Below, one piece after another: positions 14,936 through 33,798 of a stretch of DNA of 39,514 bases. Source of the DNA: a virus. A program made the position numbers and the translations under genes. The stretch spans positions 1-39,514 of IMG/VR virus record IMGVR_UViG_3300036851_000382; one strand, given 5' to 3'. How positions within the stretch are numbered: position 1 is the stretch's first letter; every line of letters begins with the position of its first letter. The notes under the pieces were generated by a model. That model ran no database searches and had not been told where the DNA came from. It worked only from the letters and a program-made list of their open reading frames with translations.

Positions 14936-14936
14936 A

Positions 14937-15857: not shown

Positions 15858-15865
15858 GAGCGGAC

Positions 15866-18025: not shown

Positions 18026-18033
18026 CAGAGGTA

Positions 18034-18062
18034 TTGACCTATAGTTGCATCCCTGAAAGAAT
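18034..18062 (+). promoter_or_regulatory. Candidate promoter for the reversed gene at 18084
   Basis: TTGACC at 18034-18039, 17 bases, then AAGAAT at 18057-18062 (four of six -10 positions). It sits 22 bases before the plus-strand start and just ahead of its strong binding site. A reversed isolated gene needs its own promoter, which supports the call. Confidence 0.45.
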
Positions 18063-18065
18063 CAA
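18038..18065 (-). promoter_or_regulatory. Candidate divergent promoter on the minus strand
   Basis: Reading the minus strand, TTGATT (18065-18060) is followed after 16 bases by TATAGG (18043-18038). It would drive the propeller gene and the genes after it. It overlaps the plus-strand candidate, so the two would compete. Confidence 0.3.
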
Positions 18066-18083
18066 TCTTCCAGGGAGGAACCA

Positions 18084-18395: not shown

Positions 18396-18991
18396 GCAGT
18401 CGGACCGCCGCTCCAGTCGTCCAGGAATGCGCCCCCGTTCCAGTTCATTGCAAGGCCGGGCGAGCCCGAGGCATGGGTTGCGTCGGTCACCGACAACTGC
18501 TCCACGGCGTTGACCAGAACGCGGATCGTGGTGCCGGTCGCCTCAAGCCTCACGACGTCCCCGTTTGCGATTGTCGCCGAACTGAAAGATCCCAAGCTCG
18601 TATCAGTCCCGCTCGTCGTCTCATAGAGGAAATAGTTTCCGCCCGCAGGACCGATGAACTTGTAGCCGGACGGCCCAGCCCACCTGACGCACAACCCACC
18701 ACTGTCGCCCGCTGTCGTGAACGTCGCCTGCGAGAACTGATCGTTTGCGAAGGTATTAACCGCCGTCGCCCAATGCGAGATATTGTGCGCCGCATTGAAC
18801 CCGTTGGCCGTGACCGTATTGGATGAGATGACGCAGGAGCCAACTGCATTTGTCCAGTTGCTGCCGAGTGCACCATTCGCACGATTGAAGTTGTCAGATA
18901 CATCCCCGGCCACGGGCGGTCGCGGCACGACAACCGGATTGTTGTCGATGACCGATCGCCGCTTTGCCACCGCAGCATGATCATAGCGCAT
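18392..18991 (-). CDS. ConA/LamG-like beta-sandwich protein with shared N-terminal tag
   Basis: 199 aa. The first 12 residues (MRYDHAAVAKRR) are almost the same as those of the next upstream gene. After a Pro-rich linker, SDNFNRANGALGSNWTNA begins a jelly-roll domain of the kind found in many carbohydrate-binding modules (VRLEATGTTIRVLVNAVEQL, then SPGLAMNWNGGAFLDDWSGG at the C-terminus). The DNFNR-x-(N/D)G-x-LGxxW opening is typical of these glycan-binding sandwiches. Probably a virion accessory that binds a cell-surface or environmental polysaccharide. Its end overlaps that of the reversed gene by four bases. Confidence 0.7.
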   Translation of the reverse strand: MRYDHAAVAKRRSVIDNNPVVVPRPPVAGDVSDNFNRANGALGSNWTNAVGSCVISSNTVTANGFNAAHNISHWATAVNTFANDQFSQATFTTAGDSGGLCVRWAGPSGYKFIGPAGGNYFLYETTSGTDTSLGSFSSATIANGDVVRLEATGTTIRVLVNAVEQLSVTDATHASGSPGLAMNWNGGAFLDDWSGGPTA

Positions 18992-18992
18992 C

Positions 18993-19598
18993 TCAGGGGG
19001 AGACCTCGACCTTCGTGATGAAGAATCCCGTCGTCGCCAGCGGCGAATAGCCCGTCTTGTTCACTGTCGCTGCGTCGTTGCCCCCAGCCTTGAAGTATCC
19101 ATCGGTATTGGCCAGCGTTGCGCTCGTGATCGAATGCGATGCAGTTGCGCCAGGAAACCACGCAAAGACGTAATTCTTCGTCGCATCCCAATTTTCAGGC
19201 AGAGCAAAGCTGTCCGAGGTATATTCCGCATTTGCGCCCGGAGTGACCGTTACCGGGAAGGTCACAGTCGCCGGCGTGCCAGCGAAATCGTAGGCATCCC
19301 CAGCAGCGGCCGCCTGGCCAAACCGGAACGTGCTAGGCACACCATTGTTGTTGGACGCACTCCCGAACCTGACCGTGATGCGGGCATTGGCCTTGCCCGC
19401 TGATGCCGTCAGCCCCGCCGACTTGAGCACATTGAGCAACGTCAGATCGGCATTGCCGTCACCGTCGTCCGTCCCATTGAGCGTGGCGGAAACGTCATAG
19501 ACCGTTGTCCACACGACACCAGAGGGTGCCGCGACAAGCGCCGCCGAACCGTCGAGCACCGGCCGCCGCTTCGCCACGATGGCGTGGTCGTAACGCAT
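18993..19598 (-). CDS. Beta-rich virion protein with shared N-terminal tag
   Basis: 201 aa. It starts MRYDHAIVAKRRPVLDGSAA, matching the tag of the following gene, then continues as an all-beta protein (LNGTDDGDGNADLTLLNVLK, ARITVRFGSASNNNGVPSTF, NYVFAWFPGATASHSITSAT). ATG 19598 has AAGG seven bases upstream and lies one base after the preceding stop. Function unknown. The common tag on two different C-terminal domains suggests both dock on the same virion site. Confidence 0.6.
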   Translation of the reverse strand: MRYDHAIVAKRRPVLDGSAALVAAPSGVVWTTVYDVSATLNGTDDGDGNADLTLLNVLKSAGLTASAGKANARITVRFGSASNNNGVPSTFRFGQAAAAGDAYDFAGTPATVTFPVTVTPGANAEYTSDSFALPENWDATKNYVFAWFPGATASHSITSATLANTDGYFKAGGNDAATVNKTGYSPLATTGFFITKVEVSP

Positions 19599-19599
19599 G

Positions 19600-20046
19600 C
19601 TAACCTTGGACTGTCAGCTTTCCGCGCAGAACCGTCAGCAAAGCCTCGAGCACCGGCCGCGCCTCGCGCGGCGTCAGACTAAGCGAATCGATGTCGCGGC
19701 ACGCGCCCGACGGATCGCGCGCCTTGAAGCCCTCGAACACGGTGAGATTGCGGATCGAGGTCTCGATCGTCTCGATCGCGCCGCGTATCTGATCCTGAGT
19801 CATCGCCGGCTTGAGCGCCGGGACACCCTGACCAGCTGAGCGCATCCGCTCTTCGAAGACACAGTCATCGCACAGCCACGGACCTGATCCGCTTGAGGCC
19901 GGATCATACGGACCATAGTGAAAGCAGAACCCATCGGGCTCGACGGGCTTCGTCTGGCACTTCGCGCAGATGCCCATCGAGTGCCCGACCGACGGAATCC
20001 CCATGCCGATCTGCGGCCGATCGGTCCGCATCACCGGAACAAGCAT
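19600..20046 (-). CDS. Zinc-ribbon-like protein, 148 aa
   Basis: ATG 20046 is chosen for its GGGAGGAA site. The N-terminal half carries CAKC and CDDC pairs (ICAKCQTKPVEPDGFCFHYG; PWLCDDCVFEERMRSAG), so a zinc ribbon is likely. The C-terminal half is helical (QDQIRGAIETIETSIRNLTV; REARPVLEALLTVLRGKLT). Found as a pair with another Cys-rich gene one base upstream. No family recognised. A structural or DNA/protein-binding role are both possible. Confidence 0.6.
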   Translation of the reverse strand: MLVPVMRTDRPQIGMGIPSVGHSMGICAKCQTKPVEPDGFCFHYGPYDPASSGSGPWLCDDCVFEERMRSAGQGVPALKPAMTQDQIRGAIETIETSIRNLTVFEGFKARDPSGACRDIDSLSLTPREARPVLEALLTVLRGKLTVQG

Positions 20047-20047
20047 C

Positions 20048-20329
20048 TCACTTCCTCCCGAGCACGCCGTCGTAGTGCATTTTTGTTTCCATCGTTTCGA
20101 GCCATCTCTCGATCGGCACGCACGGCTTGCCGGCACACTTGAGACACACCGGCCCGTTGCACTTGTGGCAATAGCCACCGATGCCGTCGTCCGTGTTGGA
20201 CTTGAACGGCGGCTTGTCCACGACGGCCTGGCAATGCAGGCAGGTGAACGTCTCGACGATCTGATCGCAGGGAAGCGCGGGGTCTTTGATGATGAAGGCG
20301 CCCCGCGTCTTCCGTTGTCCGAACGACAT
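20048..20329 (-). CDS. Small Cys-rich zinc-ribbon protein, 93 aa
   Basis: 93 aa starting MSFGQRKTRGAFIIKDPALP. Cys pairs CLHC, CHKC and CLKC plus C70 give at least two zinc-binding knuckles (about residues 30-70). The C-terminus is helical (ERWLETMETKMHYDGVLGRK). An AGGG lies nine bases before ATG 20329. It resembles small phage zinc-ribbon proteins encoded near head-tail genes, but the exact family is not identified. It and the next gene are probably co-translated (one-base gap). Confidence 0.6.
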   Translation of the reverse strand: MSFGQRKTRGAFIIKDPALPCDQIVETFTCLHCQAVVDKPPFKSNTDDGIGGYCHKCNGPVCLKCAGKPCVPIERWLETMETKMHYDGVLGRK

Positions 20330-20346
20330 GATTCGTGCCCTAGTCG

Positions 20347-20823
20347 TTACTGATCCTCGTAATCCACGCCCACGAAGGCAGGCGCGGCGTAGGTCGGCGA
20401 CAGCGCCAGGAACACCAGACCGACGTCGTTGGTGGCGGGCCACAGGATCATTGCGTCGGTGTCCGGCGCCGCCCACTGCATCGAGGCGCGCTGGTTCAAG
20501 GCGCGCGCCCACACCGGCAGCGTATAGGTGCCCTCGGCGGTATAGCCCGCACCCGAACCGGTGCGGCTGGCGACATCGCCCGGCACCTTCGGGTTCGGCG
20601 TCAACGCCGAGCGGGTGCCGCCCGAGGTCGATTGCCGCTGCACGGCATAGACGATCTGGCAGTCGGTCGCGTTCGGGGCACCGTCGGCACCGACCGATAT
20701 CTCGGCCGCACGCCCACGGCAAAGCGTGGCGGTGACGCCGTAGAGCGACAGCATCGTCTTGAACGTCGTCGTCAGGTTCTGCTGGACGCCGGCCATTCGG
20801 TTATTCGCATGATAACGCGCCAT
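20347..20823 (-). CDS. Probable virion protein, unknown function
   Basis: 158 aa: MARYHANNRMAGVQQNLTTT, FKTMLSLYGVTATLCRGRAA, then a mixed domain with YTLPVWARALNQRASMQWAA and an acidic end VDYEDQ. No Cys pairs or membrane segment. A strong AAGGAG lies eight bases before ATG 20823. The position is that of minor head or head-tail joining proteins. The opening (M-A-RYHA) loosely recalls the tag of the two genes at 18392-19598, but the match is too short to claim relation. Confidence 0.55.
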   Translation of the reverse strand: MARYHANNRMAGVQQNLTTTFKTMLSLYGVTATLCRGRAAEISVGADGAPNATDCQIVYAVQRQSTSGGTRSALTPNPKVPGDVASRTGSGAGYTAEGTYTLPVWARALNQRASMQWAAPDTDAMILWPATNDVGLVFLALSPTYAAPAFVGVDYEDQ

Positions 20824-20886: not shown

Positions 20887-22026
20887 TCAGGCCGCCCTTG
20901 CTACAAGTCGGGGCTTGAACTCATCCCACGCACGGCACAGCGCTTCGAAGCTGTCGGGCTCCCAGATGATGCGCTGATCGGGAGCGCTCCACGGGAACTG
21001 CTCGCCGACGCCGACGCCATGGTTTCGTTTCCACCATTGCGGCGTGTTCGGGATATAGCCCGTCATCGGGTCGGTGTTGATGAAGGCGAGCCACGGCTTT
21101 GTGCCCAGCAGAGCCAACGTCCATGGACCGTTATCGACGAACAGGTTGCACTTCGCGCGCTCATAGAGCGCGACCCGGATATCGAGATCGAGCGATGCCC
21201 CCGGACACGTCACGAAGCCGTCGATCGGCTCGCTCGCCTTCGATGTGTCGCGCACGAAGATGACGAACTCACCCTCCCGAGCCAGCTTGGCCGCAAACGG
21301 CAACCAGGCATCCAGGTTGCTGTTGCGGTGCGGCCAGTGCTGCGACTCGCGTAGCGTGATCGTCACCGGCGGTCGACCGATCCTCTCCAGCATCTCCCGC
21401 ACGCTGTCACGAGCAGCTTCGGTCACCGTCAGCCGCGGCACGGGCTCGCCTGCCCGCGCCGCCTCCGTGATTTCAACGAAGCTGTAGCAGCTCGGCCGAC
21501 GCCCACCCAACGCCTCGTTCGTGATCTCAGCACCGACCATCCGGCAGATCGGCACGACGACATGATCCATCCAGAAGTCCCGGCTGACGATCTCGTCATG
21601 CGCAAACTGAATATTCGTCGGCCCCTCCATGAAGGCGACCTTGAGCGGCCCCGGCACGCCTTCGCGGATCTGCGTCATCCTGGCGGTCATCGCCCACGGC
21701 AGGAAATCGAACTGCACCGGCTCGCTGTTGACGTCGTAGCAGACCAGATTCGCCGGAATATCCGATTGCACCGGAGCGCGGACATGCGGCGAGGTCGGCA
21801 GGATATCAGCAACCATCCGACGCTTGAGCTGATCCATCGCGGCGTAGGCCGCGAAGTGACTCGTGTTCACGCCGGCGTGGTCGATGAAGGCCACCGTCGG
21901 ACTCTCGCACGCTACCAGCGCGACGCAGTTGAGTTCGCCCAATTCTGCGCGCTCAAGCCAACGCTCCAGCAGGTCACACACTTCCTTGTTGCCTTCGACC
22001 GGCTCGACCTTCTCAATAGGAATCAT
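20887..22026 (-). CDS. Glycosyltransferase-like protein (GT-B type) with extra N-terminal domain
   Basis: 379 aa. An N-terminal helical region of about 80 residues (EVCDLLERWLERAELGELNC; VNTSHFAAYAAMDQLKRRMV) precedes a transferase-like body. TITLRESQHWPHRNSNLDAW, LFVDNGPWTLALLGTKPWLA and GVGEQFPWSAPDQRIIWEPD parallel, in the same order, VTLRHQVRKSPYRNSNQAAW, FGVSCGPTFLCSVTDYPCMI and RYGEQMPWFGKDQIAVWERD in the gene at 25507-26214. The two are therefore paralogues. The Rossmann-like C-terminal half resembles heptosyl-type GT-B proteins. It is separated from the main cassette only by the head-closure gene. Donor and acceptor unknown. Confidence 0.6.
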   Translation of the reverse strand: MIPIEKVEPVEGNKEVCDLLERWLERAELGELNCVALVACESPTVAFIDHAGVNTSHFAAYAAMDQLKRRMVADILPTSPHVRAPVQSDIPANLVCYDVNSEPVQFDFLPWAMTARMTQIREGVPGPLKVAFMEGPTNIQFAHDEIVSRDFWMDHVVVPICRMVGAEITNEALGGRRPSCYSFVEITEAARAGEPVPRLTVTEAARDSVREMLERIGRPPVTITLRESQHWPHRNSNLDAWLPFAAKLAREGEFVIFVRDTSKASEPIDGFVTCPGASLDLDIRVALYERAKCNLFVDNGPWTLALLGTKPWLAFINTDPMTGYIPNTPQWWKRNHGVGVGEQFPWSAPDQRIIWEPDSFEALCRAWDEFKPRLVARAA

Positions 22027-22029
22027 GCG

Positions 22030-22377
22030 TCATGAAGCCGCGACAAGCGGCGCCTCCGATGCTGCGTAGCAGTCGATCTCAATACCTTCGCGGCGGCCGA
22101 TCTCTCGGACGTCGGTGATATCGAAGTTCCGTCCCTCGAACAGGAGCCGGTGCAGAGTCGATATTTCCGCAACGGTCTGCGACCAGCGGATGCGGAACGT
22201 CTTGACCGCGTGCCCGACGATCTGCTGGGCCGCGAACCGCTCTGCACCGCGGTTCTCGATCTTATCCGCGGGAACGGTCGCGACATCGACCCACGTCACG
22301 ACCTGGTCGCCGCTGTCGCTCAGCGTGACGGACTTTCGCTGTATCGTGATGCTGCGATCAAGTCGGCCGGCGCGCAT
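22030..22377 (-). CDS. Head-tail joining (head closure) protein
   Basis: 115 aa: MRAGRLDRSITIQRKSVTLS, GDQVVTWVDVATVPADKIEN, then RWSQTVAEISTLHRLLFEGR and FDITDVREIGRREGIEIDCY. This is the standard sequence layout of the Phage_H_T_join family (AGxLDRRIxIQ..., W...VxA...E, FRIRW, I...IxEIGRREGLEI). It plugs the portal-adaptor after DNA packaging. In most genomes it directly follows the adaptor gene, but here 8.3 kb of sugar-modification genes lie between them. Confidence 0.9.
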   Translation of the reverse strand: MRAGRLDRSITIQRKSVTLSDSGDQVVTWVDVATVPADKIENRGAERFAAQQIVGHAVKTFRIRWSQTVAEISTLHRLLFEGRNFDITDVREIGRREGIEIDCYAASEAPLVAAS

Positions 22378-22384
22378 GTCGTTC

Positions 22385-23209
22385 CTATTGGATCAGCCGC
22401 CAGAGGGTTCCATCGACCAGTTCTTTTTCGTTGAACTGGTGGTAAGCGAGGGAATGCAACCAACGCGTCCGGTCCGGATAGATCGGCTGTTCTATCTTGG
22501 ACAGGTCAGTCAATCCGACGAATGACGCAGCCGAACACGGAGCGACGAACACCGGGCATCCCATGATGACCGCCTCGACGGCGGCGATCGATGCGTGCGT
22601 GACCAAGGCATGCGCGCCGGCGAGTTCCTGCGACAGCTCGACCTTGGATTCCTTGTCCCGCACGACGAGTCTGCGGTTGGTGTATTCCTTCAACGCCGCG
22701 AGTGTGCGTTCCAGCCAGCCTTCTTGCCCGTGCAGCCTCGCGTAATCTGTCCCGCCAGCCGGCGCGATCAGGATGTGCTCGCCCTGATGCCACGGAGAAA
22801 TCTCGATCTTGCGTGGATCGACGCGATTGCCCGGTACCAAGACCTGCCACCGATCGTCTGGCACGTCGTCCACTTGGCGCATTTGAAACGAATTCACGCT
22901 CCATCTGTAGTAGCCGCCATCGGCACCGCGCGGCAGACCAGTGGCATAGACCCGGCGGACATAGCCGCGGTCCCAGTAGATCCACGTTCTGCCACGCGAG
23001 CGCCACTCTGCGATCATCGGACGGAACTGCGGCGTGCACCCCACGATCGGCACGATCTGATCTGGAAGGCGACCGACCGACGCGTGATCTCCCCTGATGA
23101 CGCGCCCGCCATACGCCTCGATCTTGCTGCCGATGCGATTGAACAGATCGAGCTTCACGCGCCGCAGCTCGGCTGGAATGAAAAGGCAGACCTTCGACGG
23201 GTCGATCAT
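22385..23209 (-). CDS. GT-B-like glycosyltransferase
   Basis: 274 aa. The N-terminal half reads like an acceptor-side Rossmann domain (KVCLFIPAELRRVKLDLFNR; WIYWDRGYVRRVYATGLPRG). The C-terminal half has a donor-site pattern (HILIAPAGGTDYARLHGQEG, THASIAAVEAVIMGCPVFVA), the usual Ala-x-x-Glu-Ala-x-x-x-Gly-Pro/Cys-Pro-Val stretch of GT-B enzymes such as capsule synthesis and CDP-glycerol-type transferases. Start ATG overlaps the upstream GIY-YIG stop as ATGA. Last gene of the main cassette. Substrate unknown. Confidence 0.65.
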   Translation of the reverse strand: MIDPSKVCLFIPAELRRVKLDLFNRIGSKIEAYGGRVIRGDHASVGRLPDQIVPIVGCTPQFRPMIAEWRSRGRTWIYWDRGYVRRVYATGLPRGADGGYYRWSVNSFQMRQVDDVPDDRWQVLVPGNRVDPRKIEISPWHQGEHILIAPAGGTDYARLHGQEGWLERTLAALKEYTNRRLVVRDKESKVELSQELAGAHALVTHASIAAVEAVIMGCPVFVAPCSAASFVGLTDLSKIEQPIYPDRTRWLHSLAYHQFNEKELVDGTLWRLIQ

Positions 23210-24150
23210 ATGTCCCTTTTCGCAGCCTTAGCGGCAGCGCGACGGGCAATCTGCATCGCCCGATATGCCGGATCGGCCCATTTGGCTCTGAGCATTGCAC
23301 TTTGCTTCTCTCGTGCATCAGGGGCAGCAAAACGTTTGCTTCGCCATTCTGGATTTGATGCCCAAGCTGCAAGTGCTTTGTCGCGCAATCGCGCAACACG
23401 GTCAGGATCGCGCCAAAGATCAGCTAATTTTTGTCGAAAGTCAGTGTCACGCCACACCTGAGACTGTTTCTTACTTGCTCTCGACCGGCGCTCTGGAGTA
23501 TCGGCCGCCTTAAACGCTTGCAGCATTTTAGAGCGCTCTAGCTGATCAGCCCACCGCAAACGCGATTTTTCACCTTGTCTTTTGCGAAACGCTGGATGGG
23601 ATCGAACTGATACTAGCGCATTTCGCCAGTCAGGATCGCTCCATCGAGCTCTCATCGCCGTGCTTTGCCTTTCACTTTGCCTTGGATCGGACCAGAATGT
23701 CTCGATCGCCGACCGATGCTTTGGGTCAGTCCACATAGCTATCGCGAACTGGATTCTCCTTGCGCGGTACTGCGAATCTGACCAACGCCGCTTCAAGTGC
23801 TCTGAATCAAATCCGACGCCGCCAGATAAGATATTCCACAATTGATCGCGAGGAACGGCAGATATTTCTACTATTTCGCGTTCGAAAGCCTCTTCAGAAG
23901 ACAGCCCAGAAGAAATTATTCGAGACTCAACTACAGATCCGACCCTCAGTGCCTTGGCGAGGCGGTTGTAAAACTTCGTCGCAGTAATCTTTACACCGGC
24001 GGCACGTCTTCGATTAATGCTTGCAGCAATCTTCAAATGATCTCTGACCCGGCGACCCGTTCCCTTGCCGATATAACGAACAATTCCATCCACGGCGATG
24101 GCGTAAACGTAGCAGCCGGGCGGATTGTGATGTATGGATGGCTTAGCCAT
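23206..24150 (-). CDS. GIY-YIG endonuclease with repeated DNA-binding motifs
   Basis: 314 aa. The catalytic domain has CYVYAIAVDGIVRYIGKGTG (GIY-YIG elements, residues 13-32), RRVRDHL with the catalytic Arg, Glu in SSEEAFEREIVEI and Asn in LWNILSGG. From residue 120 on there are tandem 20-30 residue elements of the form R-W-(S/A)-DP-x-(W/Y)-R (WSDSQYR, WTDPKHR, WSDPRQS, WSDPDWR, WRDPDRV, WADPAYR), probably each contacting DNA. It is free-standing inside the sugar cassette, overlaps the next gene by ATGA and leaves a 96-base gap upstream. Base composition is visibly less GC-rich than its neighbours. A homing enzyme that inserted here. Confidence 0.85.
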   Translation of the reverse strand: MAKPSIHHNPPGCYVYAIAVDGIVRYIGKGTGRRVRDHLKIAASINRRRAAGVKITATKFYNRLAKALRVGSVVESRIISSGLSSEEAFEREIVEISAVPRDQLWNILSGGVGFDSEHLKRRWSDSQYRARRIQFAIAMWTDPKHRSAIETFWSDPRQSERQSTAMRARWSDPDWRNALVSVRSHPAFRKRQGEKSRLRWADQLERSKMLQAFKAADTPERRSRASKKQSQVWRDTDFRQKLADLWRDPDRVARLRDKALAAWASNPEWRSKRFAAPDAREKQSAMLRAKWADPAYRAMQIARRAAAKAAKRDI

Positions 24151-24246
24151 TCGGGCGCTCCTATCGCTCGGGTGGTCAGAGCCGTCACGGTGTCATCAGC
24201 ACCTTGGCGGCTCGCTGATTCTAGATCAGCACGAATCAGATTTCAA

Positions 24247-24942
24247 CTACCTCCAGTGCTCATGAATCCAAGGCAAGTACCTGAACTTCGACGGATCGCG
24301 CCAACCCGGAAAGACCACCAACTTGGCATTATCGGGTAAGTGATTGTCCTTCGGCCACCCCCGCTTTGCGAATGACCAAATCCCACTTTCTGGCCCAACA
24401 TTCCAACCAGCGCCATCAGGAATCTTGGCGTTGAGCCAAGCCTGATCGTCCGGAAATTCGTAATATGGCACCCGTTTTGCCGCCGCTATGGAAAAGTCCG
24501 ACCACACATCTGGCCGATAGCCCGCACGGAGCATCCAGAGCGATCCGTTGTATGGACAGGGGTTCGATGCGTTCGCGCCTTGCAATATCAGGAACGGATC
24601 GGAACGAAAAAACAGCGGATCGAGCGGACCAGTCACAACAGCATCGAGATCGACGCACACGATACGATCATCCACCAACAATTCGCGCTGCCACTCAGGA
24701 TCAAACAGCCGCAGTCGAGCGAAGCATCCGCGGATGGCTAACAGTTGTCGATCACGGATATGCGTGACGGAAAATGGCGGTCCAACACTTGCTAAACGCT
24801 GCGCCTGCTCCTCAAGATTCCCATCCACGGCACACACGAACCGATGTGGCTCACGCAAGTGGCGGGCGAACCCTGCCCGAAGTCGTTCGACGTATTCTGG
24901 CGGGTATTTGTCTCCCCACCAGAACGTGATGACGGTCAACAT
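24247..24942 (-). CDS. GT-A glycosyltransferase (DxD, GT8-like)
   Basis: 231 aa. MLTVITFWWGDKYPPEYVER is a GT-A-like start. IVCVDLDAVVTGPLDPLF contains the metal- and sugar-nucleotide-binding DLD (98-100). NPCPYNGSLWMLRAG (127-141) and DDQAWLNAKIPDGAGWNV are typical of GT8/galactosyl- and glucosyl-type transferases. WIHEHWR closes the chain. Likely transfers a hexose from a nucleotide sugar. ATG 24942 is used; a GTG at 24948 is possible. It overlaps the upstream methyltransferase gene by seven bases. Confidence 0.75.
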   Translation of the reverse strand: MLTVITFWWGDKYPPEYVERLRAGFARHLREPHRFVCAVDGNLEEQAQRLASVGPPFSVTHIRDRQLLAIRGCFARLRLFDPEWQRELLVDDRIVCVDLDAVVTGPLDPLFFRSDPFLILQGANASNPCPYNGSLWMLRAGYRPDVWSDFSIAAAKRVPYYEFPDDQAWLNAKIPDGAGWNVGPESGIWSFAKRGWPKDNHLPDNAKLVVFPGWRDPSKFRYLPWIHEHWR

Positions 24943-25514
24943 CGCCACAACACCCCGAAGCCGTTGTCCTGACCCGTCGGATCAAGCACGATCTCTTCGC
25001 GATGCGGGTAGAACCCCTTTATCGAGTCCCAAAACTCCCGAACATCAATCTGATATCCCGTCCAGCCAGCCGGGCGGCGCCAAGCGATGTCATGAAAGGC
25101 AACGATGCGGCCGAGCGGCCCGTAGTTCTCCCAATCCTTTGAGACGTAAGGAAGCGTGTGATTCGCGTCGATCAGGACTAGGTCAAACGGCCCAAGCTCG
25201 CGAACCGCCGCCACGATCTTGCTGTCGGTGCTGTCGCCCCAGAATAGAGTCGTCTGATGTCCCATCGCCCGCAGACGCGCGGAGCATGCCTGCAACGATA
25301 CCTTGCTTTCGTTCCAGGCCCTTGTAGCCCCCGGCATGTCGATCGCGACAACCTTGGAACCCGATGGCATCACACTCGCCACTCGCCAGAGCGAGCCCCC
25401 GAACTTCGAACCGATCTCCAGGTAGGACCGGACGTTCTCCCGCTTCACTATTTCGACAAACGCCGCGATCTCCGCTTCGTGCTGCAACGCTTTGGTTTCA
25501 TACAATTCAGGCAC
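24936..25514 (-). CDS. Class I SAM-dependent methyltransferase (Methyltransf_24 / CmcI-like)
   Basis: 192 aa from GTG 25514, preferred because GGAG lies eight bases before it. Earlier starts would reach deep into the upstream gene. RSYLEIGSKFGGSLWRVASV (29-48) is SAM motif I. KVVAIDMPG holds the acidic end of strand 2, GPFDLVLIDANHTLPYVSKD the metal-binding region of O-methyltransferases, and RIVAFHDIAW motif III. This family includes sugar O-methyltransferases and the cephalosporin-hydroxylase-type enzymes. In a glycan cassette, O-methylation of a sugar is the natural reading. Confidence 0.75.
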   Translation of the reverse strand: MPELYETKALQHEAEIAAFVEIVKRENVRSYLEIGSKFGGSLWRVASVMPSGSKVVAIDMPGATRAWNESKVSLQACSARLRAMGHQTTLFWGDSTDSKIVAAVRELGPFDLVLIDANHTLPYVSKDWENYGPLGRIVAFHDIAWRRPAGWTGYQIDVREFWDSIKGFYPHREEIVLDPTGQDNGFGVLWRC

Positions 25515-26214
25515 GCGATTTTCTCCAACGCTCGAAATTTGCACGGACGGTAGCAAGATCATCACGCTCCCACACTGCGATCTGGTCCTTGCCGAACCAT
25601 GGCATCTGCTCACCGTACCGCAGACCGACCTTCTCGTGAAACGTCCGCTGCAAACCCCAATTGAAGATCATGCACGGGTAGTCTGTGACGGAACACAGAA
25701 ACGTCGGACCGCACGACACACCGAAATTCATCTCGGCGCCCGCATAGAGCGCGACGCGCTCGTGTAGATGGATTGGCCTGTCGTCGTAGTCCTCGATCAC
25801 CACCGCTCCGATCTCGGACGCGAACTGCCGCCATGCGGCTTGGTTCGAATTTCGATATGGACTCTTTCGCACCTGATGCCGCAGCGTGACCGTGTAGCGC
25901 GCCGAACCCGGCGGCAGCACGGACCGCAGGCGTGGGAATTTGTTGTGCCGCACGAATGCAACGAACTCTTTGAGCTTGCAACTACCGACCCGCTCGCCAT
26001 CGTCGCCCTCTCGGGATGGAAGCCCGAGCAACGCCGGCCCTGGCGCGATGATCGTCTCAAACCGCCTTCGAAGCACATCTTCCGGCCAGATCGACTGGCG
26101 GTTGACCTTCGTCCCGAATACGATCTCCTTGGCGCCCATCGCCGCTGCGACCGGTAGCCACTGATAGAAATCGAACCCGTTTAATTCATACTGCAGGTCG
26201 TAACGCGCGATCAT
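25507..26214 (-). CDS. GT-B-like glycosyltransferase, paralogue of the gene at 20887
   Basis: 235 aa. MIARYDLQYELNGFDFYQWL opens it. VTLRHQVRKSPYRNSNQAAW, FGVSCGPTFLCSVTDYPCMI and RYGEQMPWFGKDQIAVWERD repeat the three key blocks of the protein at 20887-22026, but this one lacks that protein's N-terminal domain. Only the C-terminal half is clearly transferase-like, so an acceptor domain may be reduced. Overlaps genes on both sides. Substrate unknown. Confidence 0.6.
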   Translation of the reverse strand: MIARYDLQYELNGFDFYQWLPVAAAMGAKEIVFGTKVNRQSIWPEDVLRRRFETIIAPGPALLGLPSREGDDGERVGSCKLKEFVAFVRHNKFPRLRSVLPPGSARYTVTLRHQVRKSPYRNSNQAAWRQFASEIGAVVIEDYDDRPIHLHERVALYAGAEMNFGVSCGPTFLCSVTDYPCMIFNWGLQRTFHEKVGLRYGEQMPWFGKDQIAVWERDDLATVRANFERWRKSRA

Positions 26215-26987
26215 CCATCAACGCTCCGTGCGGCGTTCGTGACGTCCTCGACGGTGATCGCATCCATTGCGTTGATGCAGTGCTCGCACCGCTTAAGCGA
26301 ACCACATGCCGGCCCGCCCGCGGCCAGGTTGACGTGCATCTTGTAGCCGGTGACCTCCGGCGGAATGAACCCGCCGAATAGAACGACGCCTGGAACATCG
26401 ACCGCGGCGGCACCGTGATGCATTCCGCCTTCGTGGCCGATGTACAACGAGGCACGCGATAGGACCACCAATCCATCCCGGAAGCTGGCCGTTGCGATCC
26501 GCTCCACATTCTGCAGAGCGTATCGCGCGCCCTTGTATGCGAGCTGCACGACGCGGTGGCCATCCGCCAGGAGCCCGTCCGCGACCGATTGAAATCGATC
26601 GACCGGCCACTGCTTGTTGACGGCCACCGACTTGTGCACCGGGACGTTCGGCTCGATCAGGACGAAGCCTGGTTTGATCGACGCAGACAAAGCCTTTTCC
26701 CTCGCGTCGAAGAATATCTCTCCCGGCACCGGCCGGAAGTCCATTTGCCATACCCACCGATCCGCACCGAGGTGGTTGTATAGCCGATGCCCTTTGTAAT
26801 GCGCGATCCACTCAAGATCCCCGGCGCCTTCGCTGCCAGGGGGCGCGACGTTCGGATTGCCCTTCAGGATCAGGGGCGCGAATGGACCCCACATGATCCG
26901 CCGACCGTCGCCGAACGCGATCCTTTTTCCGCGGGCCGCGGCGCCACGCGCAAGACCACTCGCGATAATCTCATCCCCGGCACCCAT
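26211..26987 (-). CDS. Glycosyltransferase family 9-like (heptosyltransferase type)
   Basis: 258 aa from ATG 26987, five bases after the upstream stop. GDEIIASGLARGAAARGKRI is the N-terminal nucleotide-fold start usual in GT9. EPNVPVHKSVAVNKQWPVDR and ASLYIGHEGGMHHGAAAVDV with VVLFGGFIPPEVTGY reproduce the GT9 donor-site blocks (the KxWP...F and GxDSGxxHLAAA...VVxLFG patterns, here GHEGGMHHGAAA). Similar proteins add heptoses or other sugars to lipopolysaccharide cores. Here it may act on a virion glycan or on host LPS. A CxxC pair near the C-terminus (CGSLKRCEHC) is unusual. Confidence 0.75.
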   Translation of the reverse strand: MGAGDEIIASGLARGAAARGKRIAFGDGRRIMWGPFAPLILKGNPNVAPPGSEGAGDLEWIAHYKGHRLYNHLGADRWVWQMDFRPVPGEIFFDAREKALSASIKPGFVLIEPNVPVHKSVAVNKQWPVDRFQSVADGLLADGHRVVQLAYKGARYALQNVERIATASFRDGLVVLSRASLYIGHEGGMHHGAAAVDVPGVVLFGGFIPPEVTGYKMHVNLAAGGPACGSLKRCEHCINAMDAITVEDVTNAARSVDG

Positions 26988-26991
26988 GCCC

Positions 26992-27591
26992 TCAGCGCTT
27001 GCCCGCACACACGGCAAATCGGTAATGACACATCGGTCCGAAACCCTCGTGCAGCGCGTAGTCATTCAGGCCATATGTGAAGACGGCCCAGAAATGCCGA
27101 CTCATTGTCTCGCGTAGCTCGTCCTCCGTCTTGCAGTTGACGTGGTGCAGACGCGAGAGCGCAGATGCATATGGCTGCGATTCGCGTGAGGGCATCCCGA
27201 CGATCACGGCGCCGTGGTCGTCGAGCGACTCGGCGATGTGGCGCAGGGCCACATTCTCAAGCTCCGGACTGATGTGCTCCAGCACATCGAGCGCATAAAT
27301 CGCATCCCACTTGCCGCCACCAAACAACAGGGGACCGCTCAGAATGTCGTGCTTGTGATGCCTGATGACATCGAATCCGCTGGGACGATCGATGTCGCAG
27401 CCCTCCAGATGGCCAACAGTCTGTTTGACAATGCGCGCCCCGGTGCAATCGCCGCAGCCTATCTCGAGTACCGCGCCGCGTCCCACCAACTGGCGTGCCA
27501 CGAAGTGGTAACGGCGCAGGACGAAGCCGACATGCTTCGGGTCCGTCTCAAACGACGCACTGTGCATCGCGCCAAGCTGGAGGTTCGTCAC
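26992..27591 (-). CDS. SAM-dependent methyltransferase (Methyltransf_11/23 type)
   Basis: 199 aa from GTG 27591, which overlaps the upstream stop as GTGA. VLEIGCGDCTGARIVKQTVG (41-60) is SAM motif I, GCDIDRPSGFDVIRH gives the acidic ribose-binding residue (Asp66), and WDAIYALDVLEHI (95-107) is motif II. AVIVGMPSRESQPYA follows as motif III. These are standard for small class I C/O/N-methyltransferases that act on sugars or other small groups. Two other methyltransferase-like genes lie in this cassette. Confidence 0.8.
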   Translation of the reverse strand: MTNLQLGAMHSASFETDPKHVGFVLRRYHFVARQLVGRGAVLEIGCGDCTGARIVKQTVGHLEGCDIDRPSGFDVIRHHKHDILSGPLLFGGGKWDAIYALDVLEHISPELENVALRHIAESLDDHGAVIVGMPSRESQPYASALSRLHHVNCKTEDELRETMSRHFWAVFTYGLNDYALHEGFGPMCHYRFAVCAGKR

Positions 27592-28319
27592 TTCACCTTC
27601 CACTTGGCGCCGCTGCCGTAATGCACACGTCTCGAGCTGGCCTTGTAGCGGTGATATGCCGCAACGTAAGGCTTGTTCGATGAGCGGTGCATCAGCCGAT
27701 ACTGTGCCTGAATCGGAACGCGCGAATCGTTCGACGCCGGACCCTTCTCTGCAATCACGACATTCACGAAGTCGCCACACATCGGAGTCGCCGGCACCGG
27801 GTTGTCGTCGGCATCGAAAGGCTCCCACAGACAGAGCCACCATTCCTTCCGCATCCCGAACGGGAAAAGGCCGAGATATACTTGGCAGTCCGCATAGTCG
27901 TTCGCCGCAAAAAAGTTGAAAAACCATTCCGGCGAGAACGTCATCAGCGCGCCTTGGATTGCCGTCCCGTGCTCCATCAGCACGATCCGGCCGCCGGGTC
28001 GCAACAGACGGGACAAGCAGCGCATGGCGTTACCGACATCAAATATATTGTCCAGGCATGACCCGTCGAAAACAAAGTCTGCGCACCCGACAAGCTCCTC
28101 AGGGAGAGGTTGATTCAAGTCGTGGATGATGTCTGCGCCTTCATACTCGCTGACATCGAGTGCATGGAAGCGTGCATCACAGAACGAGGCGAAGAACTCC
28201 TGATCTGTCAGCGTGCTGCATTCGATGCTCTGCCTACCGATCAACACCAGGTCGCCCGTGATCGGTTTGAAGGAATGCTCCCGATGTAGAAGATCGATGA
28301 TCGCCGGAAATATCGACAT
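27588..28319 (-). CDS. Methyltransferase-like Rossmann protein
   Basis: 243 aa from ATG 28319 (overlapping the upstream stop as TAATG). GDLVLIGRQSIECSTLTDQE is a degenerate motif I. RFHALDVSEYEGADIIHDLN, FVFDGSCLDNIFDVGNAMRC and RLLRPGGRIVLMEH follow the order of class I methyltransferases. LRPGG is a typical motif III loop. The glycine-rich motif is weak, so SAM binding is less certain than for its neighbour. The C-terminal 90 residues are specific to this protein and end in a basic tail SGAKWKVK. Confidence 0.6.
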   Translation of the reverse strand: MSIFPAIIDLLHREHSFKPITGDLVLIGRQSIECSTLTDQEFFASFCDARFHALDVSEYEGADIIHDLNQPLPEELVGCADFVFDGSCLDNIFDVGNAMRCLSRLLRPGGRIVLMEHGTAIQGALMTFSPEWFFNFFAANDYADCQVYLGLFPFGMRKEWWLCLWEPFDADDNPVPATPMCGDFVNVVIAEKGPASNDSRVPIQAQYRLMHRSSNKPYVAAYHRYKASSRRVHYGSGAKWKVK

Positions 28320-29194
28320 TAGATCCTGCGCAAGATTGCCGCGCAAATTCTTTGCGCGGTTACGTCCGGACCCGACCGTCCCTTGATTCTGATCTGCTGT
28401 GCAAACAGGCGGCGATGCAGCGGAGTCGCGTGCCTCTTCGCCCAATCCGCGATATCGACAACTCCGATCGCACGCGACCGCAACGGAAAAACCCGCTCTG
28501 GAGGCGATATTTCAGCGAACGAAGCCTCGTCCGGATCGGTAACCAGATGAATCTCATCCCATTTGAAGTTATCGGCCAAATCGACGTCGATGGTCTTGCC
28601 CTCGAATTTCAGGTGCCGATCCTTCATCACTGCGAACGGATGCAAGTGGAACCCATGCAGCACAATATCGTCGCCTCGCTCGAAGTAGATCGCCCACGGC
28701 GTACCAGACCGCCCGCTGCCCCAAAAGCATTCCTGGATCGCCGGGTGCCTATGCTGCATCGCCCAGCGGAGCAGGTCAGCCGACTTGGCCCCGATGGGCG
28801 CATCGCCACCGACCGTCCGCGATCCCGCCATCATGATCATGCGCTTGCCGGCCAAGAACCGCTTCTCAGCGGCAGAGAACAGCTCGATCGAGCCGACCAT
28901 GTCGGCGTTTATGAATGCGACGCACTCGCCGTCCGCAGCAAATTGCAGCGCCTCACGGTGCGCATGGCCGAAGCTCTCATGCGGAGTCTTGCCCGGCGGC
29001 ACCTCGCGAACGATGCTCCCGCGGAACGCCCCACCAAGCAACTGCTGCACCAGCACCGGCTTATCGGTGTGAACGATCAGCCGCGCGTTGCCGCTGATGC
29101 CGCCCTGCGCCGCCACCACGGCGGGCAGCGCCTTGTTGAGGAACAGATCGAAGCAGCGCGGCCCCCATGCCGGAATTGCGATCAACCAGTCCAT
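28319..29194 (-). CDS. GT-A-like glycosyltransferase
   Basis: 291 aa. MDWLIAIPAWGPRCFDLFLN and GNARLIVHTDKPVLVQQLLG give the nucleotide-binding half of a GT-A fold. CVAFINADMVGSIELF (91-106) stands where the DxD motif is expected (NAD in place of DxD). The middle (PWAIYFERGDDIVLHGFHLH) and C-terminus (FAEISPPERVFPLRSRAIGV) are family-specific. Phage and bacterial proteins of this kind sit among O-antigen and capsule genes. Start is one base after the preceding stop (TGATG). The motif substitution may mean a metal-independent or inactive enzyme. Confidence 0.6.
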   Translation of the reverse strand: MDWLIAIPAWGPRCFDLFLNKALPAVVAAQGGISGNARLIVHTDKPVLVQQLLGGAFRGSIVREVPPGKTPHESFGHAHREALQFAADGECVAFINADMVGSIELFSAAEKRFLAGKRMIMMAGSRTVGGDAPIGAKSADLLRWAMQHRHPAIQECFWGSGRSGTPWAIYFERGDDIVLHGFHLHPFAVMKDRHLKFEGKTIDVDLADNFKWDEIHLVTDPDEASFAEISPPERVFPLRSRAIGVVDIADWAKRHATPLHRRLFAQQIRIKGRSGPDVTAQRICAAILRRI

Positions 29195-29973
29195 CAGCGA
29201 CCATAGTCCCCGAACGTCTCGACCGTTTCGTATTTCTCCGGGGGGAAGCCGTTCGCCTTCGCCTCCTCGAGAAGTTCGTCGAACAGTTCGACGATGTCCT
29301 TACGCCAGTGCGGGCGCGTCGTTCCTGCGTACCAGTGTTTCTGGCCCCGCGCCGCAAGCCGTGGCAGCGCGTGTTTCAACTGCGGCTGCGTCGGGATCGA
29401 GGTGCAGTGAATGATCTTGATGTCGGGATCCCGCAGATCCTTGTAGTTCTCGCCGTCAAGACAATTCCAGTTGCCGATGCCGTTGAAGGTCTGCACCGAA
29501 CCTGGCGTGAAATTCCTACGCAGCATCGTGCCGTAGAGGCCGATTTCCGATCGCAATCGCGAGACCGGCGGTAGGAACTTCCTCGCTTTGGCGCAATCGA
29601 ACAGCGAGCAGCAGAACGTCTTCGGGTTCTTGGCAACAACGAAAGCGCCTGCTGCCATCTCCTGGTTCCAGAGCTTGGCGCTGTCGTCCATCACCATCAT
29701 GTCAATGTCCAGATAGATTGCACGGCCTTCGAAGTCGCAATATTCTGGGATCGCCCAGCGGAACGGCGAGAACGGCGTCGCCCACAATCTCGTATTCCAA
29801 CCCTGCCGCGTCTTCGGATTCGAGTACCAGAAGCTTTGCGGATCGCGCGACAATTTCATCCACGTAATCGATAGATCGTCTTGCGGATGATGCTTCCGCA
29901 ACGACCACTCTAGGACGCTCTGTGATTCCAAATCCTCGTTATTTGCAGGCGTTCCAACAAACACGCGAATCAT
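29194..29973 (-). CDS. Glycosyltransferase, GT8-like
   Basis: 259 aa from ATG 29973 with an AAGGTG site. It overlaps the preceding stop as ATGA. MIRVFVGTPANNEDLESQSV and EWSLRKHHPQDDLSITWMKL start the fold. AIYLDIDMMVMDDSAKLWNQ holds the DID metal-binding triad (89-91). VQTFNGIGNWNCLDGENYKD and IKIIHCTSIPTQPQ give the acceptor loop and the C-terminal His region of GT8. The set of motifs is complete, so this is probably an active retaining hexosyl/hexuronyl transferase. Confidence 0.8.
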   Translation of the reverse strand: MIRVFVGTPANNEDLESQSVLEWSLRKHHPQDDLSITWMKLSRDPQSFWYSNPKTRQGWNTRLWATPFSPFRWAIPEYCDFEGRAIYLDIDMMVMDDSAKLWNQEMAAGAFVVAKNPKTFCCSLFDCAKARKFLPPVSRLRSEIGLYGTMLRRNFTPGSVQTFNGIGNWNCLDGENYKDLRDPDIKIIHCTSIPTQPQLKHALPRLAARGQKHWYAGTTRPHWRKDIVELFDELLEEAKANGFPPEKYETVETFGDYGR

Positions 29974-30641
29974 AGCCGCCACCTTGCCAAGGCGCCCTCG
30001 ATGTTCATCTTAGGAAAGATGGTCAGCGCACTCTCCGCAGAGCAGTTCACGACCTGCACGCCCAACGACCTGAGCTTCGGGACTGCGCCTTCGAATGCCT
30101 TCAGCCAGCGCGTGCAGTTGCTCTGCATCGGGTTGCTCAGAGGATGCGGATGCCGCCCGTGCCAATGCTCGCCACGTTCAACATTCATATCGAATCCGAT
30201 CAACGCTATCCCGGTCGCACCGAACTGAACCACGAGGTTGAGCAGTTGGAATCCTGAATTTGCGCCAGCGCCGAGATAGCCTGGCGTGTCGGTCAGAAGA
30301 TCGTTGCCGCGAGCCTCGACATCGACCTTAATTAGGCCTGGATATCGCCCGATGGCCTGAACATCCTGAGTGATGCGCAAGCCAGTGAATTTCTTCGCGC
30401 CATCGTGGACCTTCCACCAGTTCGCGTCGCAACTGTAGAGAATTTCCGCCCACGGACAGAGCTTGTAGCAGTCGTTCACAACCACGACGTGGATACGATC
30501 GCGCAGCGCCTCGATGTTCGCCTTCTTCGCGGACGGCCCGGACGCGATGATCGCGACGCATTCGCCGCGCCAGTCCTGCCACCATGGGAACTTCGAAGGC
30601 CCGAGTTCTGCGGCCCGGTTCAGAGGCGACGGCGCGAGCAT
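29970..30641 (-). CDS. DUF115/GT42-like protein (Maf or sialyltransferase type)
   Basis: 223 aa. CVAIIASGPSAKKANIEALR (28-47) carries the GPS loop that binds a nucleotide sugar in DUF115/Maf and GT42 proteins. VVVVNDCYKLCPWAEILYSC, AGANSGFQLLNLVVQFGA and IALIGFDMN (146-153) are further hallmarks (NSG and GFDM). Relatives transfer nonulosonic acids such as pseudaminic or sialic acid, or act in glycan assembly on flagellin. It stands at the head of the cassette, directly after the adaptor gene (TGAATG). Confidence 0.7.
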   Translation of the reverse strand: MLAPSPLNRAAELGPSKFPWWQDWRGECVAIIASGPSAKKANIEALRDRIHVVVVNDCYKLCPWAEILYSCDANWWKVHDGAKKFTGLRITQDVQAIGRYPGLIKVDVEARGNDLLTDTPGYLGAGANSGFQLLNLVVQFGATGIALIGFDMNVERGEHWHGRHPHPLSNPMQSNCTRWLKAFEGAVPKLRSLGVQVVNCSAESALTIFPKMNIEGALARWRL

Positions 30642-31235
30642 TCATGCCATTCCGAGCGCGACCCGATGCGGCCGCAGCAGTTGCTCCGCACCCCATGGCA
30701 GCTGCACAGCGGTCTGACCTACGACGACCGTCTCGCGATGGGCATAAAGCGATCCCAATGTCAGAAGGATCGCCGCCTTTATGTCGAACGGAACGTTTGA
30801 AAGCGGCGGTGACGAAGCATCGAGATATCCGGCACGAAACCGGACGCGTACGGCGTTCGCTGCTTCAAGAGTCGTCGGCCAAGAGGAACCGGATCGGACA
30901 AGCGCCACCAACGTCCTGTCGCCGGCATCGTTGACATCATAACTCGCCTCATCCAATTCTTGCTCAGCGCCATCGCTGTCACGATAGAAGACGCCCATCA
31001 CCTCGATTGTTGGCGGCAACGGAATCGCTATCTCCGTGGGAAACTCGTCCAGAAAGAGGTCCCACGTCTGGTCCATCAGCGCTCGGCCCAGAAACTGTTC
31101 CGCATTCTGCGTCGCAGCCTTCAGGTACAACTCTATCGTCCAGTCATTTTCATCGTCACCGACGCGAAGGTGCTCCTTCGCTTCCTCCACGGTCAAAGGA
31201 TAATCAGTTGGCGCGGACACGAGCTTCAACCCCAC
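30642..31235 (-). CDS. Head-tail adaptor (gp6-like connector)
   Basis: 197 aa from GTG 31235. MGLKLVSAPTDYPLTVEEAK, EHLRVGDDENDWTIELYLKA and AATQNAEQFLGRALMDQTWD are the standard first helices of the Phage_gp6/HK97 gp6 family. FLDEFPTEIAIPLPPTIEVM and VRVRFRAGYLDASSPPLSNV are the conserved loop and strand. RGYxxxxxxP is replaced by RAGYLDASSPPL. It forms the dodecameric ring below the portal. Confidence 0.9.
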   Translation of the reverse strand: MGLKLVSAPTDYPLTVEEAKEHLRVGDDENDWTIELYLKAATQNAEQFLGRALMDQTWDLFLDEFPTEIAIPLPPTIEVMGVFYRDSDGAEQELDEASYDVNDAGDRTLVALVRSGSSWPTTLEAANAVRVRFRAGYLDASSPPLSNVPFDIKAAILLTLGSLYAHRETVVVGQTAVQLPWGAEQLLRPHRVALGMA

Positions 31236-31239
31236 GACA

Positions 31240-32385
31240 TCAACCCCACTTGCTGCCGTCAGGTGCCATCTGCGTCAGATCTTTTCCGCGCGGGCCTTCT
31301 TTGCCGGGCTCGCCCTTTAGTGACGCGAGCCAATCGCGCTTCGAACCCTTGAAGCCTTCCTTCAATGCCAAGTCGTAGGCGTTGTGGCCGTCCCGACCGC
31401 GTTTAACAGCCAGACGCCATTCATCACCCGCACCAGGCACGGCATTAGTGTCACGCTGCGCAATAAAGAACGATCCCTCATATGTGACCCCGTCGCCCCT
31501 CAAGTAGTTCCTGTCGGACTTGTACGAACCCCGATCAAGAACGACAGCCGTCTTGATCTCCCGTTTCAACTGAAGATCACCGTTGACGAATTCGACTACG
31601 ATCAGGCGACCATCGTCCTCCGTGGCAATATTGAAGTCTTGGAGGCTGAAACCATCTTTGCCGTCAGCACCGTTGCAGCCATCCTTGCCAGGCGCACCGT
31701 CCTTACCGTTGAGTCCGGGTAGCCCGTCACGACCCGGCAGGCCATCACGTCCGGGTTTTCCTTCCGGGCCGTCCTTACCCGTAAGCCCAGGATCGCCCTT
31801 CTCTCCACGTCCGCCCGGCTCGCCCTTTTCGCCCCGCTCACCGGGCAACCCGCGCTCGCCCATGACGCCATCCGCACCATCCTTGCCATCAACCCCATCG
31901 CGGCCATCCTTGCCCGCCGCACCGGCCTCGCCGGGCTTGCCATCGACCCCGTCGCGCCCATCTGCGCCAGGAGGGCCGCCGGCCCCGTCTTTCCCGTCAA
32001 CGCCGTTGCGGCCATCTGCGCCGGGCGCACCGTCTTTCCCGTCGGCGCCATCGCGGCCGTCTTTTCCAGGCGCACCATCTTTCCCGTCAACGCCGCCGCG
32101 ACCATCTGCGCCGGGCGCGCCGTCTTTCCCGTCGACGCCATCGCGGCCGTCTTTTCCAGGCACACCTGGAGCTCCGTCCTTAACCGACGCAATCGCGTCC
32201 GCGATACGCTGGCGCTGCTGATCGTAGATCGCGCGAAGTTCGGACTGGAGTGCCCTGCACTCTGCACGCACGGCGCGGTTTTCCGCCTCCATACGATCAA
32301 GGTCTCGGCGGAACTCAGACTTGAATTGAGCGACGACGCGACCAAGCGCTTCGGCAAGCGCGTCACGCTGCAGCGCGGTCTGCAT
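31240..32385 (-). CDS. Collagen-like virion fibre protein
   Basis: 381 aa from ATG 32385, which overlaps the portal stop by 23 bases. Residues 1-70 form a coiled coil (LAEALGRVVAQFKSEFRRDL). Residues 71-244 are 58 unbroken Gly-X-Y triplets rich in GKDG, GRDG and GADG, i.e. a collagen-like triple helix. The C-terminal domain has YKSDRNYLRGDGVTYEGSFF and DTNAVPGAGDEWRLAVKRG, a chitin-binding-like (CBM5/12) motif, then a trimerising YDLALKEGFKGSKRDWLASL and a short second collagen segment. Likely a trimeric fibre on the capsid or portal. One Cys in the triple helix (GCN) is unusual. It stands directly before the adaptor and the sugar cassette. Confidence 0.85.
   Translation of the reverse strand: MQTALQRDALAEALGRVVAQFKSEFRRDLDRMEAENRAVRAECRALQSELRAIYDQQRQRIADAIASVKDGAPGVPGKDGRDGVDGKDGAPGADGRGGVDGKDGAPGKDGRDGADGKDGAPGADGRNGVDGKDGAGGPPGADGRDGVDGKPGEAGAAGKDGRDGVDGKDGADGVMGERGLPGERGEKGEPGGRGEKGDPGLTGKDGPEGKPGRDGLPGRDGLPGLNGKDGAPGKDGCNGADGKDGFSLQDFNIATEDDGRLIVVEFVNGDLQLKREIKTAVVLDRGSYKSDRNYLRGDGVTYEGSFFIAQRDTNAVPGAGDEWRLAVKRGRDGHNAYDLALKEGFKGSKRDWLASLKGEPGKEGPRGKDLTQMAPDGSKWG
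31654..32175 (-). repeat. Collagen Gly-X-Y coding repeat, 58 triplets
   Basis: The DNA codes for 58 successive Gly-X-Y triplets without a break. Asp and Lys/Arg dominate X and Y, which stabilises bacterial triple helices without hydroxyproline. Confidence 0.9.
31988..32167 (-). repeat. 90-bp tandem duplication inside the collagen repeat
   Basis: 31988-32077 and 32078-32167 align over their whole length with about seven or eight mismatches. The unit codes for ten Gly-X-Y triplets, so copies can be gained or lost without breaking the frame or the triple helix. Confidence 0.75.
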
Positions 32386-33796: not shown

Positions 33797-33798
33797 GA

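Follow-up and report, generated by a model that had tools for sequence, protein, structure and literature searches.

Glycosylation of the virion is already known in phages, and Corndog and Che8, both actinobacteriophages, are described examples. In Corndog an O-methyltransferase, two glycosyltransferases and a GlcNAc-transferase are encoded between the portal and the protease, and the authors suggested that they modify the capsid (PMC4351075). Glycans on the mycobacteriophage capsid and tail tube are attributed to Freeman 2023 in the passages of PMC12619734 and PMC11256854 that cite it. Here we describe a cassette of eleven glycosyltransferase (GT)-like and methyltransferase-like genes (20887-30641) in the 39.5-kb IMG/VR record IMGVR_UViG_3300036851_000382, which was analysed as a whole and is called the window below. 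The window comes from a soil virus whose hosts, judging by related loci only (Rhizobiales, Caulobacterales), appear to be alphaproteobacteria. It is almost certain that the eleven enzymes make a sugar chain carrying methyl groups, probably on the phage's own particle. As in Corndog and Che8, glycosyltransferases and a methyltransferase are combined in a region of virion genes, and in Corndog they also lie within the head module. However, the hosts of those phages are actinobacterial, and the window cassette is larger than the published Corndog example, with eleven genes rather than four.

The cassette interrupts the late genes of the window, which are all on the minus strand. On the 5′ side it is bounded by a gp6-like head–tail adaptor (30642-31235; Pfam Phage_connect_1, E = 3.9e-10; phrog_442, E = 4.3e-29) and on the 3′ side by a head completion or closure protein (22030-22377; Pfam Phage_HCP, E = 8e-19). 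A preliminary description of this DNA had assigned these two genes, and had placed ten genes resembling glycosyltransferases or methyltransferases between them, together with a GIY-YIG gene, and an eleventh enzyme behind the head closure gene. The identities, the coordinates and the count were all confirmed, and the two boundary genes are 8.26 kb apart. Head completion is followed by the eleventh enzyme (20887-22026) and, after a further block of genes, by the tail genes.

Six of the enzymes recur in related loci and are called the core. Core 1 (29970-30641) is a protein of the DUF115/‘alpha-2,3-sialyltransferase’-like type that matched phrog_4603 (E = 1.4e-42 over 188 residues) and has relatives in phages S20 and PAJU2, in P1 (pmgO) and in Caulobacter phages. 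The phrog is named after alpha-2,3-sialyltransferase, an activity that is putative for core 1, and a search for solved structures related by sequence found none. Core 2 (29194-29982, with the start probably at the ATG at 29973) is a GT8-like protein whose match to Glyco_transf_8 (E = 0.0011) lies below the Pfam cut-off, but its DxD motif is invariant in the family alignment and its profile matched the GT8 structure 5gvv (E = 0.003). Core 3 (26211-26987) belongs to GT9, the heptosyltransferase superfamily (Glyco_transf_9, E = 2.9e-6, 27.2 bits against a cut-off of 22). As a profile it matched heptosyltransferase II (1psw, E = 5.9e-6); its homologues begin with MGxGD, and a C-terminal glycine/histidine motif, EGGxHHGAAA, is conserved in the alignment. 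Core 4 (24936-25514) is a Methyltransf_24/CmcI-type, probably sugar, O-methyltransferase (Methyltransf_24, E = 2.8e-7; RMNT_CmcI, E = 2.1e-6). Core 5 (24247-24942) is again GT8-like with a GT-A fold type (phrog_1962 glycosyltransferase, E = 2.8e-8); together with its relatives it matched the GT8 structures Gat1 (6mw5, E = 1.2e-5) and glycogenin, and its DLD motif is invariant. Core 6, called G11 (22385-23209), has a predicted GT-B-like fold with a predicted local distance difference test score (pLDDT) of 70, nearest to Kdo transferases at modest confidence (Foldseek, KpsC 6e-4 and WbbB 1.2e-3).

The other five enzymes are accessory or lie behind head closure. The protein at 28319-29194 looks GT-A-like by eye, from an NADM motif in the sequence alone; profile searches gave no family match, and no relative was found among the related loci. 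The gene at 27588-28319 is weakly class-I methyltransferase-like (Methyltransf_11, E = 0.005, below cut-off), and the one at 26992-27567 is a class-I methyltransferase (Methyltransf_23, E = 1.8e-7). The protein at 25507-26214 is GT-B-like in its AlphaFold model (pLDDT 90.6), with WaaC as the nearest Foldseek match at an E-value of only 3.8e-3, and has homologues in loci L116, L133, L140, L147, L151, L155 and L164. The eleventh enzyme, 20887-22026, is a long paralogue of 25507 (phmmer, E = 3e-7) and GT-B-like by this homology. Profile comparison showed no kinship between G11 and the 25507 family. The enzyme classes named in the preliminary description were recovered, some of them weakly: two probable GT-A enzymes with DxD (24247 and 29194, both GT8-like with the motif kept, the match of 29194 being weak), GT9 by profile, GT-B-like folds predicted for 25507 and 22385, the DUF115/GT42-like protein in phrog_4603, and three methyltransferase-like genes, 24936 and 26992 by Pfam and 27588 weakly. 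A role in anti-phage defence was rejected, since PADLOC gave no relevant match and a weak mad2 match of 26992 was taken for a generic methyltransferase resemblance.

Several gene starts were corrected, namely to 26987 for the GT9 gene, 27567 for the methyltransferase gene 26992, 28319 for gene 27588, 24942 for gene 24247, and 25514 (GTG) or 25562 (ATG) for gene 24936. The maximal open reading frames (ORFs) reach 28445 for gene 27588, with an ATG at 28319, and 27927 for gene 26992. With the corrected starts, neighbouring genes overlap by 1-8 bases or are separated by no more than 20, except for a single 96-base gap ahead of the GIY-YIG gene; for 24936, the overlap at its start becomes about 56 bases if the ATG at 25562 is used instead of the GTG at 25514. 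Most junctions therefore overlap or almost touch, and the earlier view of a cassette in the late head module that is apparently one transcription unit was upheld. In a scan of the cassette, promoter and terminator sites were no more numerous than in shuffled sequences. Late expression of the genes is likely from their position.

Related loci were collected by a portal-based search of IMG/VR (80 loci) and by a G11-based search (80 loci, retained from 153 confirmed relatives), with few loci common to both; single-protein searches of IMG/VR returned one locus for the DUF115 gene and none for the adaptor. Profiles built from the window genes were mapped on all loci, and E-values are inflated for the loci included in the models. 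The recurrent order DUF115, GT8, GT9, Methyltransf_24, GT8-like, G11 was intact in 51 of 55 loci that carried at least four of the six genes including G11, after near-duplicates had been removed by hand. Since the same gene order recurs in tens of loci, the cassette is not a chance assembly. Core cassettes lie mostly within the head module of siphovirus relatives: 11 are placed between adaptor and head completion, 10 in the interval from capsid to portal and 9 behind the post-portal protein; another 17 extend up to head completion, and their opposite flank is unassigned or beyond the contig end. The preliminary description had proposed that related phages be searched for the cassette between the adaptor and head closure genes, and at least 11 core loci answer to this; its view that such a cassette is unusual at this site was not borne out. 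In relatives, GT9 and Methyltransf_24 are commonly (37 loci) separated by a further methyltransferase, of about 190 residues, which may be a seventh core gene; the window has 25507 in that place.

Shorter versions are found in many more loci, for example adaptor, DUF115, GT, methyltransferase and head completion, and some consist of a single DUF115-like gene, which is the part most often retained in the shortest cassettes. At the other end, 22 of the 46 scorable loci in the portal-based set had no DUF115, GT8, GT9 or G11 gene, and in three of these, L025, L027 and L037, a 24247-family gene stands by itself ahead of the portal. On a quick portal tree with a weakly resolved backbone, cassette presence changes at least 10 times, against 19.5 times in shuffles; it is clustered on the tree, yet has been gained or lost repeatedly. 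The variable genes of the relatives are of sugar-tailoring types (TylF, E = 1.6e-38; FkbM, E = 6.9e-15; a hexapeptide acyltransferase; an NAD-dependent epimerase), which suggests a glycan as the product.

Parts of this arrangement can be found in deposited genomes. Tetraselmis viridis virus S20 (NC_020840) has an adaptor-like gene followed by a GT, a DUF115-like gene, a methyltransferase and a GT8-like gene up to head closure, an arrangement at the same site as in the window that is not annotated as a glycosylation system in the record; it clearly shares no more than the DUF115-like and GT8-like genes with the window, the remaining genes differ, and S20 has a second DUF115-like gene ahead of the adaptor. 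In Pseudomonas phage PAJU2, ORF010-012 encode a DUF115-like protein, an uncharacterised protein and a methyltransferase directly after head closure, three genes only. PAJU2 ORF010 (AP009624, L005) was deposited as a ‘structural protein’; if that label comes from experiment, the enzyme may remain part of the virion. Bradyrhizobium elkanii pUSDA31-2 (NZ_CP126028, L179) has portal and post-portal genes, then seven genes that can be read as DUF115, GT8, GT9, two methyltransferases, a GT and G11, and then tail genes. Its G11 is 52% identical to that of the window, its GT9 and methyltransferases are annotated and the remaining genes are assigned by their order and size; unlike in the window, the cassette comes after the post-portal gene and the window-specific extras are missing. 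This 67-kb plasmid, with its portal, tail tube and tape-measure genes beside the cassette, is apparently a phage-plasmid, although it is not so labelled. The Caulobacter jumbo phages CcrSC, CcrBL9 and CcrColossus encode DUF115, G11-like, GT8-like, methyltransferase and GT9 proteins in one run, with two G11-like copies in CcrSC, but at 28-43% identity, in another gene order and between tail proteins and endolysin. When the six core and two accessory proteins were compared by tblastn with 50,697 phage records, no mycobacteriophage was among the matches listed, and actinobacteriophage enzymes were not directly compared. The literature searched, mostly outside subscription papers, gave no published description of this cassette, its size, its conserved core or its alphaproteobacterial spread.

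Two of the core enzymes, G11 and the cassette GT9, are nearly confined to phages. G11 had 153 viral relatives but was found in only five of 84,980 bacterial and archaeal genomes, by a pattern-based scan that can miss divergent members. The five are a Bradyrhizobium, two Mesorhizobium, a Hyphomonadaceae and a Phenylobacterium metagenome-assembled genome. Because four of the five loci adjoin phage head genes and the fifth shares its gene map with an IMG/VR contig, we read them as prophages. Among 297 genomes from one order, one had the cassette GT9; the remaining GT9 genes in the four genomes that bear prophages scored only 20-29 bits. G11 and the cassette GT9, the two enzymes covered by this comparison, therefore look like old phage genes rather than recent copies of host genes for lipopolysaccharide (LPS).

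To what the glycan is attached has to be judged from the composition and position of the cassette. The enzymes appear soluble: the highest 19-residue Kyte-Doolittle value in the window enzymes is 1.88, so that a membrane-type hydrophobic segment was not detected, and almost none was detected in the relatives. Soluble enzymes, the late position in the head module, the sugar-tailoring variable genes and the lack of a detectable DNA-hydroxymethylation gene together favour stepwise glycosylation of virion proteins in the cytoplasm. We put the probability of a late cytoplasmic glycan assembly line acting on a phage structural protein at roughly 70%. The earlier proposal of a glycan-building and methylating cassette with the virion as a likelier target than host LPS was thus supported. 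Several points weigh on the other side. Soluble enzymes could act on a host molecule as well, and no donor-sugar genes were found in the window's cassette. The enzyme roles are all predicted from homology or modelled folds, weakly for 28319 and 27588, and the virion glycan is itself a prediction from genes. Moreover, the Caulobacter jumbo phages carry their related set beside tail genes, and the position of the cassette therefore does not fix the acceptor.

If the acceptor were a host molecule, the enzymes would act like those of seroconverting prophages. In a lysogen or late in infection they would alter LPS, capsule or S-layer glycans on the cell surface, and so keep out other phages or make release easier. 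GT9 and Kdo-transferase-like folds do work on LPS or capsule in bacteria, several carriers of the cassette are prophages, and similar tailoring enzymes occur in O-antigen clusters. Seroconversion clusters, however, normally contain membrane proteins such as GtrA/GtrB-type proteins, an acyltransferase or a polymerase, whereas the hydrophobicity scan revealed no membrane enzyme of the flippase, polymerase, acyltransferase or bactoprenol-linked transferase type in the cassettes. The genes also sit within the head operon with overlapping junctions, not beside attachment or lysogeny genes, and the short versions can be a lone DUF115-like gene. We therefore consider a host-surface target unlikely.

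Hypermodification of the phage DNA with glycans has a precedent in phage glycosyltransferases that act on modified DNA (Pyle 2024, as the citing passage of PMC12619734 has it). The late gene position is wrong for replication-coupled modification, though, and the TylF, FkbM and GT8 types indicate ordinary glycans. The Thymidylat_synt family, which would include a hydroxymethylase, was absent from 21 cassette-bearing viral records while its positive control matched, although the window lacks its early genes and many of these records are possibly incomplete; Tet_JBP was absent from 22 such records, with a silent positive control. With neither family found, DNA modification was set aside as a very improbable role.

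Glycosylation of the virion leaves a choice of structural proteins. A narrower form restricts the acceptor to extended fibres of low complexity, either the collagen-like post-portal protein of the window (31240-32430, minus strand; Pfam Collagen, E = 1.6e-27; 63 G-x-y triplets), a weak candidate, or the Ser/Ala/Gly-repeat fibres of relatives. Bacterial serine-rich repeat adhesins and BclA, which are glycosylated, offer an analogy. In the portal-based set the post-portal collagen had a median of 39 triplets in loci with the cassette and 6 in loci without it (p = 3e-4), but only three independent pairs lie on supported branches and shared ancestry may therefore explain the correlation. Apart from the post-portal protein, long repeat proteins were present in 10 of 83 cassette loci and in one of 61 without (p = 0.025); that sole cassette-free locus itself carries a DUF115 match, and several of the repeat proteins immediately precede the DUF115 gene. 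Both tests were selected with the data already in view and count as leads, not as results. Against a fibre acceptor, collagen repeats are found in cassette-free relatives too, only about 3% of the collagen X/Y positions are Ser or Thr, and most cassette loci have no repeat fibre within the stretch examined. A dedicated fibre is a doubtful acceptor, if a less improbable proposal than a host-surface target. The collagen-like protein as the sole acceptor was rejected, given its repeats in cassette-free relatives and few Ser or Thr residues, and so were Ser/Thr/Ala/Gly-repeat fibres as the window's acceptor, as they stand beside some cassettes but are absent from the window. A collagen-type route was also rejected: a search for a prolyl 4-hydroxylase-type or other 2OG-Fe(II) hydroxylase found no such gene. 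Capsid and tail tube are possible acceptors.

Very long Ser/Ala/Gly/Thr-repeat proteins were noted just upstream of the cassette at L123:5073-6503, L148:2377-5235, L156:2-2668, L161:1-2577 and L162:1-2553, and downstream of it at L147:13050-16178. Long proteins with tandem W-P-rich repeats (WPLPIRR, PLSEPxRRK) stand beside cassettes at L134:837-3932, L169:13335-15701 and L173:3820-6024. In the window, a block at 14633-20823 on the minus strand encodes a propeller-like protein and several uncharacterised proteins that may speculatively be considered as acceptors. The propeller-like protein (15866-18025, 719 aa) lies in the head–tail region and has Vps10/BNR (Asp-box) repeats (E = 1.8e-12). The block is absent from the close relative L120, and a comparable block adjoins the cassette in L169 and L173. 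Two adjoining ORFs in the block, 18392-18991 and 18993-19598, begin nearly alike (MRYDHAxVAKRR), like a shared virion-attachment tag before different domains.

The GIY-YIG gene inside the cassette (23206-24150; LEM-3 GIY-YIG, E = 3.8e-7, 30.6 bits against a cut-off of 27) is best read as a homing-endonuclease passenger outside the glycan pathway. Its presence is variable, with the same slot filled in L166 and a nearby one in L122, and its third-position GC is 0.47. HNH- or GIY-YIG-like genes also lie within the cassettes of L095, L099 and L101. The window has three homing-endonuclease-like genes in all, 23206-24150, a GIY-YIG/NUMOD3 gene between terminase large and capsid (36200-37240) and a gene that is HNH-like by sequence (9161-9889), with third-position GC of 0.47-0.57 against mostly about 0.75 in the genome. 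The remaining late genes upstream of the cassette, also on the minus strand, are the small terminase (39016-39492, assigned by position), the large terminase (37346-39052), a protease-capsid fusion (34183-36159) and the portal (32363-33802).

In the mechanism that we propose, soluble enzymes would add sugars stepwise to a phage structural protein from host nucleotide-sugar pools. The DUF115-like enzyme may place the first sugar, as it is most often retained when cassettes are short. The GT8-like, GT9 and GT-B-like enzymes would then extend the chain, and the methyltransferases would O-methylate some of the sugars and so cap it. Because the folds are GT9- and Kdo-transferase-like, donors of the host LPS core may serve as the sugar source. 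Accessory genes that vary among phages would diversify the outer sugars, and the virion would end up with a coat of glycan or with a fibre that is glycosylated. A broader proposal, which we advance tentatively and at somewhat less than even odds, is that a conserved and nearly phage-exclusive pathway of 6-7 genes places a methylated oligosaccharide on virion proteins in phages of alphaproteobacteria. Its core would be constant, and its outer part would differ from phage to phage and be replaced over time in the manner of a serotype locus. The products would form a widespread class of glycoproteins in phages of Gram-negative bacteria, for which a dedicated extended fibre may be the acceptor.

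The core is present in many alphaproteobacterial phages. Among the carriers are phages of the model organism Caulobacter crescentus, and a soybean symbiont has it on a phage-like plasmid. If the reading is correct, virion glycosylation would be general in tailed phages, and the cassette would provide a small group of soluble enzymes with which a defined glycan could be made. It would also be an entry point to the role of the glycan, whether in shielding, adsorption or escape from recognition. With a fixed core and variable outer genes, serotype-like turnover on phage particles becomes testable.

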